From assembly GCA_003242115.1 (NCBI GenBank), contig QBMP01000011.1, positions 6,232 to 31,153 on the forward strand: a stretch of DNA of 24,922 nt, read 5' to 3'. The position numbers and the translations under genes are program-made. This DNA comes from Phormidesmis priestleyi (GTDB taxonomy: Bacteria; Cyanobacteriota; Cyanobacteriia; Phormidesmidales; Phormidesmidaceae). Below, one piece after another: positions 20,738-24,922 of the stretch. The notes under the pieces are model-generated. The model had not been told where the DNA came from. It saw only the letters and a list, made by a program, of their open reading frames with translations, and searched no databases. Each line of letters begins with the position of its first letter. Position 1 is the first letter of the stretch.

Positions 20738-21188
20738 AGCGTCCTTAGAGGGAATAGCCAATAGTTCAGGATGTTTGCTGAAGATTTTGATGAAAGAAAA
20801 GAAACTTAAAACAATTGAGGGATCTGAGCTTTATTCACGGATGCGAGTCAGTGTTTGAAGAGGCTCTTTAGAGATGTTGGTTTATAGCGTTACCCAAAAC
20901 GCTTTGAACGCCTACAAATCTTCTAAGAAAGTTACGAAAGCGCGTGGGCATGGACTTTACATAGACGGATTTTACGGAGTTGAGTTCAAAAAACGGCGCT
21001 AGATCCTGCCAGTGATTCGATTGGCTAATTTGACGGGCTAAAGAGGATGATCCTAAAGATGAACTGACAGCTAGATAAGCGACATGTGGCGATTACGGAG
21101 CGATCGCCTCCAAGCAGGAAAAATTGATACCTGCTCATTGCACCGCAAAAAGGATCAGGCGATACTTTAATATCCCTTAATATTTCTC

Positions 21189-21194
21189 TATAAT
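21189..21194 (+). promoter_or_regulatory. Candidate glsF promoter (-10 box)
   Basis: A perfect TATAAT with TTTAAT 17 bases upstream (3 of 6 matches to TTGACA) in very A/T-rich DNA. Transcription would start near 21201, giving a leader of about 190 nt. A weak -35 often means dependence on an activator, but no activator site is recognised here. Confidence 0.55.
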
Positions 21195-21239
21195 CTCTAT
21201 ATATTTCATATTTCAAAAAAGCAGCACAAACCCGGCGAC

Positions 21240-21295
21240 GTTTTTGGATACCGACCTCGGCTATCTAACAAAGCTACGACCTAGCCGTCAAAAAC
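21240..21295 (+). promoter_or_regulatory. Candidate antiterminator structure in the glsF leader
   Basis: GTTTTTG (21240-21246) can pair with CAAAAAC (21289-21295). Enclosed in it, CGGCTA (21258-21263) pairs with TAGCCG (21282-21287). The outer helix uses the same A-run as the 5' arm of the downstream terminator (21290-21299), so the two folds exclude each other. Pairing is by eye; no energy calculation was possible. Confidence 0.45.
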
Positions 21296-21339
21296 CTGGA
21301 GGGGATCTCTCAACAGATAGAGCATACCCCAGGTTTTTT
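21290..21339 (+). terminator. Intrinsic terminator inside the glsF leader
   Basis: AAAAACCTGG plus GG (21290-21302, one bulged A) pairs with CCCCAGGTTTTT (21327-21338), a stem of 12 bp, with six T (21334-21339) at the end. It stands about 50 nt before the GTG start of glsF and about 140 nt after the expected transcript start. No gene precedes it on this strand, so it is either an attenuator of glsF or the end of a small RNA. Confidence 0.75.
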
Positions 21340-21389
21340 AGTCTTTATTTCAATTTTTCACTGGTCTTTTTCATCTAGGTGACCCAAGC

Positions 21390-24300
21390 GTGACTCTCAA
21401 CCCAACCACTTTTCAAACAGATGTATTGGAGCCCTTGGGGCCTAGCTGGCTAGTCGAAGAGCGAGACGCCTGCGGAGTTGGCTTCATTGCCGACCAGCAA
21501 GGACGCGCTAGCCATCAGCTGGTGACCGATACGCTCACAGCGCTGAACTGCATGGAGCATCGGGGGGGCTGTTGCGCTGATCAAGACTCTGGCGACGGGG
21601 CGGGAATTATGACGGCGATTCCCTGGAAGCTGCTGCAAGCTTGGGCCGACGAAGCCGGTATAGGCGAACTGTCACCAGTCAAAACGGCGGTGGCAATGGT
21701 GTTTTTGCCTCAGGCCGAGGAGTATTGTGAGCTGGCAAAGGCGCAGTTTGAGCAGGCGGTAAAGGCGACTGATCTGAGCTTTGTCGGTTGGCGGATGGTG
21801 CCGGTTGCGCCCGATACGTTAGGGCCTTTGGCACGGCATTTTCAGCCACAGATTGCCCAGGCGCTGGTGACGTCAGAAAAATTAACTGGAGATGCGTTAG
21901 AGCGATCGCTCTTCCTCGCTCGCCGTCGCTTTGAGCAGCAGATCACTCGAATGATTCAAACCGCTGATGATCTAGCGCCCTTAGCTGACGCCTATACCTG
22001 CTCCTTTTCAGCCCGCACCATTGTGTACAAAGGCATGGTCAGGTCGGCTGTGCTTGGACAGTTTTACCAAGACTTGCAGAATCCGGCCTATGAAAGTGCC
22101 TTTGCCATCTACCATCGCCGCTTCAGCACGAACACGTTGCCCAAGTGGCCATTGGCTCACCCCATGCGACTGCTGGGCCACAACGGTGAGATCAATACCC
22201 TGATTGGCAACATCAACTGGATGACCGCGCGGCAGGCGAACTTGAAGCATCCCAGCTGGGGAGATAATTTGGATTTGCTCAAGCCGGTGGTGAACGCCGA
22301 CAACAGCGATTCGGCCAATTTAGATAATGTGATGGAGCTGCTAGTACGCACTGGCAGATCGCCCGCACAAGCACTGACCATGATGGTGCCAGAGGCTTAT
22401 CACAACCAGCCTGAACTGGCTAACTACCCCGAAATCATTGACTACTACGAGTACTACAGCAGCATTCAAGAACCTTGGGATGGCCCTGCTTTAATCGTAT
22501 TTTGTGACGGTAAGCAGGTGGGCGCAACGCTGGATCGCAACGGCTTACGGCCTGCCCGCTATGTGATTACCAAAACGGGCTATGTGATTGTTTCTTCTGA
22601 AGCGGGAGTGGTGGATATTCCGGTAGAAGACATTGTGGAAAAAGGCAGGCTAGGCCCCGGTCAAATGCTGGCTGTGGATTTTGAAGAAGGGCACGAAATT
22701 TTAAAAAATTGGGACATTAAACAGCGGATTGCGAAAGCCCAGCCCTATGGTCAGTGGCTAGCAGAGCGCCGAGTAGAAATAGCCCCACAGCTCTTTAGCG
22801 AAGAAACCTGGCTAGAAACGCAAACGCTGATGACCCAGCAAACCGCTTTTGGCTACACCGCTGAAGATGTGGACATGATCATTGAAGACATGGCTGCGCA
22901 GGGCAAAGAGCCGACGTTTTGCATGGGTAATGACACGCCGCTAGCTGTGCTGTCTGAAAAGCCTCATCTGCTGTACGACTACTTTAAGCAGCGCTTTGCC
23001 CAGGTCACGAACCCACCGATTGATCCGCTCAGAGAACGGCTGGTGATGTCGCTTTCGACGCAGCTAGGGGCGCAGGGCAATCTGCTCGAAGAGCATTCTG
23101 AGCAGGCCCGACTGATGAAGTTAGAGTCTCCGGTCATTAATGACACCGAAATGGAGATGATTCGCGAGTCAGATTTTCCAACGTTTAATCTTTCGACGCT
23201 GTACGCGGTAGATGCTGGCCCTAAAGGGCTGGAATGGGCGGTCAAAGCGCTGTGTGAAAAGGCGGCTGAAGCGGTAAGAGCTGGCAGCCAGATTTTGATT
23301 TTGAGCGATCGCCTAGACGCCTCTGGCAACCTCACCACCCTATCCGACGCCCAAACCTACATTCCACCTTTAGTCGCCGTCGGCGCAGTCCATCACTATT
23401 TGATTGATCAGGGTTTGCGAATGCAGACCTCGATTATTATCGACACTGCGCAGTGCTGGAGCACTCACCACTATGCCTGCCTGCTCGGCTACGGCGCGAC
23501 CGCTATTTGCCCCTATTTGACTCTGGAAAGCGTGCGCCACTGGTGGGCCGATAGCAAAACTCAAAAGCAAATGGAGTCGGGTAAGCTGCCGGTTTCAACG
23601 CTTAACGGCGCACAGAGCAACTACCGTAAAGCAGTCGATAACGGTTTGCTGAAGATTTTGTCCAAAATGGGCATTTCTCTGTTGAGCAGCTACCGGGGCG
23701 CTCAGATTTTTGAAGCCATAGGCATTGGCGAAGAGCTTAAAGCACTGGCCTTTAAAGGCAGCGTGTCAAGGCTCGGCGGCTTGAGCATTGATGAACTCGC
23801 CCAAGAAACGATGTCTTTTCATGAGAAGGCTTTCCCTGAATTGACCCGCAAGCGCCTAGAAAATATGGGCTTCGTGCAGTCGCGGCCATCGGGTGAATAC
23901 CACATGAACAACCCGGCGATGACCAAGCTGCTGCACAAGGCCGTACAAACCAAGCAGTACGACCACTATGAGCTGTATCGCCAGCAGCTCAAGGGCAGAC
24001 CCATCGCGGCGCTGCGAGATCTGCTGGATTTTGAGAGCGATCGCACCTCCATCAACCTCACCGAAGTAGAATCCGTCGAATCAATTATGCGGCGCTTTTG
24101 CACGGGCGGCATGTCGCTGGGCTCACTCTCACGCGAAGCCCACGAAACTTTAGGGATTGCGATGAACCGCATTGGCGGCAAATCCAACTCAGGTGAGGGC
24201 GGTGAAGATGCCGTGCGCTTTGAAATTTTAGATGACGTTGACAGTGAAGGCTTTTCGCCCACGCTGCCGCACTTAAAAGGCTTGCAAAATGGAGACACCG

Positions 24301-24922
24301 CTTCTTCGGCGATTAAGCAAGTGGCCTCCGGTCGCTTCGGGGTCACGCCTGAGTATTTAATGAGCGCTCAGCAAATTGAAATCAAAATGGCTCAGGGCGC
24401 AAAGCCGGGAGAAGGCGGACAGCTGCCGGGGCCAAAGGTGAGCGAATATATCGCTTCTTTGCGCAAGTCCAAGCCGGGGGTAACGCTGATTTCGCCGCCG
24501 CCACATCATGATATTTACTCGATTGAGGACTTATCTCAGCTCATTTTTGACCTGCATCAGATCAATCCCAAAGCGGGCGTTTCGGTGAAGCTCGTGGCGG
24601 AAGTCGGCATTGGCACCATTGCCGCAGGCGTTGCTAAAGCCAACGCCGATGTGATTCAAATTTCTGGGCACGACGGCGGCACGGGCGCTTCACCGCTCAG
24701 CTCGATTAAGCACGCGGGTCTGCCTTGGGAATTGGGCCTAACTGAAGTGCATCGGTCATTAATGGAAAATCAGCTGCGCGATCGCGTCACCTTGCGAGTA
24801 GACGGCGGCATCAAAACCGGCTGGGATGTGATGATGGGCGCACTCATGGGCGCAGAAGAATACGGCTTCGGCTCGATTGCCATGATTGCCGAAGGCTGCA
24901 TTATGGCCCGCGTCTGCCACAC
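21390..24922 (+). CDS. glsF: Ferredoxin-dependent glutamate synthase, N-terminal 1177 residues (runs off the right edge)
   Basis: Makes two glutamates from glutamine and 2-oxoglutarate with electrons from ferredoxin, the second half of ammonium assimilation in cyanobacteria. The start is GTG with AGGTGA (21377-21382) 7 bases upstream. A 27-residue propeptide precedes the catalytic cysteine C28 (ERDACGVGF), which becomes the mature N-terminus of the glutaminase domain. Further on are [18 protein letters not shown], the central domain, and the FMN-binding synthase domain ([43 protein letters not shown]). Between GEGGED and SAIKQVASG an insertion of about 25 residues (around 942-966, with [13 protein letters not shown]) corresponds to the ferredoxin loop found in Fd-GOGAT and absent from NADPH-GOGAT, hence glsF rather than gltB. 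The Fe-S cysteines and the C-terminal domain lie beyond the window. Confidence 0.95.

Follow-up and report, generated by a model that had tools for sequence, protein, structure and literature searches.

The window, that is, the whole stretch of 24,922 nt of DNA that was analysed, carries the gene glsF, which encodes ferredoxin-dependent glutamate synthase and is preceded by a leader with a conserved promoter core and a terminator-like hairpin (Table 1). The start codon of glsF is the GTG at 21390. Its product matched 1llw, a Fd-dependent glutamate synthase, with 1694 bits versus 1038 bits for the top NADPH enzyme, and the single NCBIfam match was NF008730 (glutamate synthase large subunit). 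An earlier note on this DNA had named the gene after the leader as the ferredoxin-dependent enzyme, and the best solved-structure match agrees with this assignment. By glsF, the closest named genomes are Leptolyngbya sp. BC1307 and Phormidesmis priestleyi Ana (both 87%), Phormidesmis sp. RL_2_1 (86%) and Leptolyngbya foveolarum (85%), and the highest glsF identity among the relatives compared was 78% across 2994 columns. The genus sample comprised seven genomes, the window's own included, and all seven contain glsF together with a second, distant paralogue. The divergent gene upstream of glsF is present at the locus in 6/6 relatives with an identity of 38-56%, indicating that the loci are orthologous, though their leaders differ. 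In Synechococcus elongatus UTEX 2973, Fd-GOGAT has been reported among the abundant dark transcripts (PMC6091082), and the excerpt of that source available to us contains no mention of a leader RNA of Fd-GOGAT.

Table 1. Features of the glsF leader and gene in window coordinates.
Feature	Position	Strand	Remark
Promoter core CTTAATATTTCTCTATAAT with -10 TATAAT (21189-21194)	21176..21194	+	Conserved within the genus
Putative leader RNA (about 139 nt), provided that the hairpin stops transcription	21201..21339	+	Predicted from the promoter and hairpin positions
GTTTTTG, 5' strand of the proposed antiterminator (partner CAAAAAC, 21289-21295)	21240..21246	+	Present
Upstream hairpin competing with the proposed antiterminator	21244..21268	+	-8.8 kcal/mol; pair probability about 0.8-0.96
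Intrinsic-terminator-like hairpin (21290-21338) with T6 (21334-21339)	21290..21339	+	Near-symmetric, terminator-like on the - strand too
AGGTGA, presumed ribosome-binding region	21377..21382	+	AGGT 13 nt 5' of the GTG in 7/7 genus genomes
glsF, ferredoxin-dependent glutamate synthase	21390..24920	+	Structure and NCBIfam matches; extends past the window end

Allowing for a single mismatch, the promoter core was found 5' of glsF in six of the seven genus genomes, and the seventh carries a diverged form, CTTAATAATTTTCTATAAT, upstream of the gene. Since the core is kept throughout the genus sample, the promoter is probably used, and the transcript would start close to 21201. A consensus promoter scan of 20800-21700 gave no promoter-like site past 21205 and none from the hairpin to the GTG; therefore, glsF would need read-through of the hairpin. 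The consensus of the NtcA box is GTAN8TAC, and no such box occurs in the 489-490 nt 5' of glsF in any of the seven genus genomes. The looser pattern GTN10AC was seen upstream of glsF in three of them, the window not being among these. When the 18-base core was searched with one mismatch, four of the seven genomes showed one additional site each. Judged by eye, the sites L146 and L147 lie 5' of a desaturase/hydroxylase-like frame, and L148 and L149 are directed away from a frame that resembles an oxidase; a common regulator perhaps acts on glsF and these sites.

A terminator-like hairpin in front of glsF

All of the elements listed in the earlier note, namely TATAAT, GTTTTTG, CGGCTA/TAGCCG, CAAAAAC and the hairpin with T6, were found at the positions it had given. 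Its description of a 12-bp terminator stands for the 12 pairs, the T6 and the position, the T6 ending 50 nt 5' of the GTG, but the stem is interrupted by one bulged A, and in five of the pairs an A is paired with a U of the T tract itself. Outside these, the stem consists of CCTGG/CCAGG, the bulge and GG/CC.

The hairpin is the best combination of hairpin and T tract within 21201-21389, with -18.7 kcal/mol, and none of 200 dinucleotide shuffles of the leader reached this value (mean -2.6, sd 3.6). When we used a stricter measure, the number of unbroken pairs outside the T tract, the stem counted five pairs and was matched or surpassed in 6 of 200 shuffles. No other + strand hit of the whole window is as low in energy; on the - strand, the lowest hit is the mirror of this hairpin (-19.1 kcal/mol, then T5). 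A simple terminator scan restricted to loops of 3-8 did not list it. In our view, the hairpin is a medium-strength terminator candidate.

We then surveyed 73 glsF upstream regions, consisting of the window and 72 regions from 80 glsF loci; six loci were dropped because their first 1800 bases lacked the start motif and two because they had too little upstream sequence. A hairpin-plus-T-tract of -10 kcal/mol or lower was found in 9 of the 73 regions, compared with a shuffle expectation of 5.7 and a count of 4 for the antisense strand, and one of -18 kcal/mol or lower in 2 versus 0.5 expected. Unbroken stems of at least four pairs occurred in 2 regions (2.3 expected) and of at least five pairs in one (1.4 expected). 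A general enrichment of terminators in glsF leaders is not clearly visible, the counts being roughly at the shuffle level. The two strongest hairpins of the survey are those of the window and of the genus member G003, and the G003 fold is not kept in G002. Given the 6/200 shuffles by the stem measure and a survey near expectation, a single leader hairpin of this kind could be due to chance.

The leader in relatives of the genus and order

The distance from the promoter box to the GTG is 214 nt in the window and ranges from 44 to 224 nt in the genus (G001, 44; G004, 66; G006, 82; G005, 204; G002, 209; G003, 224 nt), and that from the promoter core to AGGT ranges from 13 to 193 nt. The short leaders of G004, G001 and G006 measure 35, 13 and 51 nt by the latter distance and are thus too short for a 139-nt unit. 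In local alignments of the window leader with the long leaders of G003, G002 and G005, only 2, 2 and 3 of 100 shuffles reached the score, which could reflect either remote kinship or a common T-rich tail; with the three short leaders, 18, 87 and 22 of 100 shuffles did so. The only clearly homologous leaders in the genus are those of G002 and G003, whose grouping is also the only one resolved in the branching order. These two long leaders (G003, L024 1276-1500; G002, L007 1294-1502) have kept a TTTGCTTTGAAAGC block and share a conserved pyrimidine-rich tail 5' of the ribosome-binding site.

With 21201-21360 as query and a cut-off of E<=0.001, a search of 63 genomes of the order recovered only the window's own leader, with none in the 62 others. 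In a looser search of 58 genomes, the matches listed outside the leader's own locus were partial (16-65 nt), the best having an E of 0.003 over 23 nt. The terminator-arm pattern was present in one of the seven genus genomes, i.e. the window's own. Among the genomes compared, neither helix of the switch proposed in the earlier note is conserved in close relatives, an outcome that the note itself had named as speaking against its proposal. A shared but diverged terminator was also rejected: the G003 leader forms a 60-nt fold before T5 with -19.2 kcal/mol, and its sister G002 reaches only -7.3. Of the four remaining genus leaders, three lack a hairpin before a T tract at -5 kcal/mol or better, and one has a hairpin of -5.0. 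A repeat or mobile insertion was rejected as well, the best other match of the leader in its own genome being 16 nt with E 0.69 and the arm pattern being confined to one genome. Since the hairpin is found in a single lineage, selection on it cannot be demonstrated.

These comparisons bear on the possibility that the hairpin takes no part in controlling termination, being neutral or serving as a stabilising or processing hairpin at the 5' end, with nearly full read-through. The leader is free to change in length and sequence across the genus, and the terminator-like hairpins of glsF leaders are near the shuffle level, as this reading would predict. However, the hairpin lies flush with T6, and none of 200 shuffles attains its energy. 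Weighing both sides, we consider this explanation possible, if rather unlikely.

Leader folding and the proposed antiterminator

Classical transcription attenuators are leaders in which a terminator and an antiterminator alternate. The earlier note had proposed such a switch for glsF, with an outer helix, GTTTTTG/CAAAAAC, and an inner helix, CGGCTA (21258-21263) with TAGCCG (21282-21287), and we confirmed that the proposed antiterminator and terminator folds overlap in their bases. The leader resembles classical attenuators in that a terminator-like hairpin separates promoter and gene, but differs in lacking conservation and a supported antiterminator or leader peptide.

First, the stability of the full leader (21200-21390) is not unusual, with z -1.19 and 24 of 200 shuffles being as stable. 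Second, an attenuator calls for a stable fold that excludes the terminator, and in the transcript to 21295 the two antiterminator helices combined give -10.8 kcal/mol versus a minimum free energy (MFE) of -14.6; a ligand or protein might still stabilise such a fold beyond what computation shows. The MFE structure contains a different hairpin, that at 21244-21268, which uses the 5' strand of the inner helix. Third, among the transcript ends reported, the outer helix is part of the MFE structure for ends 21305 and 21310 only. For ends 21304-21309 it forms with a pair probability of 0.39-0.46 (peak 0.46 at 21305; 0.41 at 21308); the value is 0.32 at 21310, about 0.02-0.10 at most others within 21300-21332, and approximately zero from 21334 onward, where the 3' arm of the terminator has been made. 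The probability of the inner helix is 0.04-0.20 throughout. The outer helix is thus favoured for a short while, a point on the side of the earlier reader. Finally, when the upstream leader was shuffled 1000 times, a Watson-Crick complement to the terminator arm of at least 7 arose in 30 shuffles, a complement of at least 8 with G-U pairs in 116, and a duplex as stable in 135; occupancy of the terminator 5' arm by upstream bases was equal or higher in 147 of 300 shuffles. Because both the arm coverage and the complement are matched by shuffles, these data provide no evidence of a switch: the outer helix is weak or transient and near chance, and the helices are not conserved in relatives. A good terminator combined with a complement found by hand easily resembles a switch, half of the shuffled leaders covering the terminator arm equally well.

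The Rfam search over the window returned no family at the gathering score, glutamine riboswitches included, and within 21140-21460 up to E 10 only FsrA and U6 appeared, each as a chance-level match to the - strand. This agrees with the earlier note, which had found no glutamine riboswitch core in the leader. Glutamine riboswitches, as far as the part of PMC6316151 at hand describes them, comprise the glnA (type 1) and downstream-peptide (type 2) aptamers. They resemble the glsF leader in preceding cyanobacterial nitrogen-assimilation genes, but the glsF leader matches no Rfam aptamer model at threshold, and a glutamine riboswitch was rejected. In the open-licence literature, we found no report combining cyanobacteria, glsF and a riboswitch. 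An open TTG frame of 44 codons (21244-21378) crosses the hairpin and stops just 5' of AGGT. It has no evident ribosome-binding site or homologue and is probably due to chance, and a leader peptide was rejected.

A regulated attenuator, in which a ligand, a protein or a translating ribosome shifts the leader between terminator and antiterminator so that premature termination controls glsF, could draw on the 7-bp complement with its transient helix and on the TTG frame that spans the hairpin. Against it, the arm occupancy is ordinary, the competing upstream hairpin dominates, a homologous leader is absent from the 62 other genomes of the order, no Rfam family matches, and the TTG frame lacks an evident ribosome-binding site. 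We thus regard such control as quite unlikely. A narrower form, an attenuator that arose recently in a single lineage behind the old conserved promoter and couples Fd-GOGAT to nitrogen, carbon or redox state through a ligand, protein or ribosome, would be highly improbable.

A leaky terminator and its likeness to actuatons

Since the terminator was not found in the relatives examined and the switch is unsupported, the leader probably contains a leaky stop of one lineage, a kind already described in cyanobacteria. We suggest, with a probability of roughly 0.5, that a lineage-specific and probably leaky intrinsic terminator lies between the genus-conserved promoter and glsF. We infer that RNA polymerase would start near 21201 and stop some of the time near 21339; the terminated fraction would leave a leader RNA of about 139 nt, which may accumulate, and the remainder would read on into glsF. 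The level of glsF would then be the product of promoter strength and read-through fraction, with no dedicated sensor. The earlier note had offered, as a fallback, an RNA of about 140 nt ending 5' of glsF, and this would appear to be the better half of its proposal compared with the switch.

The closest likeness is to the actuaton of Synechocystis, in which a small RNA and the mRNA behind it are driven from one promoter, as set out in the accessible part of PMC5386190. The same source describes terminator hairpins at -39 to -114 in the cmpA leader, and the case of CsiR1, where one of two Synechocystis strains has a sequence integrated behind a promoter that is conserved. The glsF leader shares with the actuatons of Synechocystis 6803/6714 (cmpA leader, CsiR1, Yfr2b/c) the order of promoter, short leader with a terminator-like hairpin, and gene, with no other promoter seen for the gene as far as the consensus scan of 20800-21700 goes. 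Like CsiR1, it is new sequence that one strain carries behind a conserved promoter (PMC5386190). A terminator between promoter and gene, which belongs to the arrangement, is predicted here, less firmly by the stem measure. The differences are that the glsF leader RNA is predicted from sequence alone and that its hairpin, T tract and leader show no sequence kinship to any Rfam family. In S. elongatus, some predicted intrinsic terminators were incomplete stops, according to the portion of PMC3219970 available. If the hairpin terminates, glsF, a central nitrogen gene, would add another example of a cyanobacterial leader in which a leaky terminator has been gained downstream of an old promoter.

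That the predicted transcript of about 139 nt acts in trans as a small RNA and shares its promoter with glsF by chance is very improbable: a promoter with a terminator-like hairpin makes a plausible small-RNA unit, and actuaton small RNAs are very abundant in Synechocystis (PMC5386190, as far as excerpted), but the other 62 genomes of the order have no homologue and Rfam gave no match.

Elsewhere in the window, a tight hairpin of 10 pairs followed by T6 lies at 17982-17959 on the - strand, just 3' of the - strand gene 18444-18013. It is likely an ordinary gene-end terminator, and the organism thus plausibly uses such signals.
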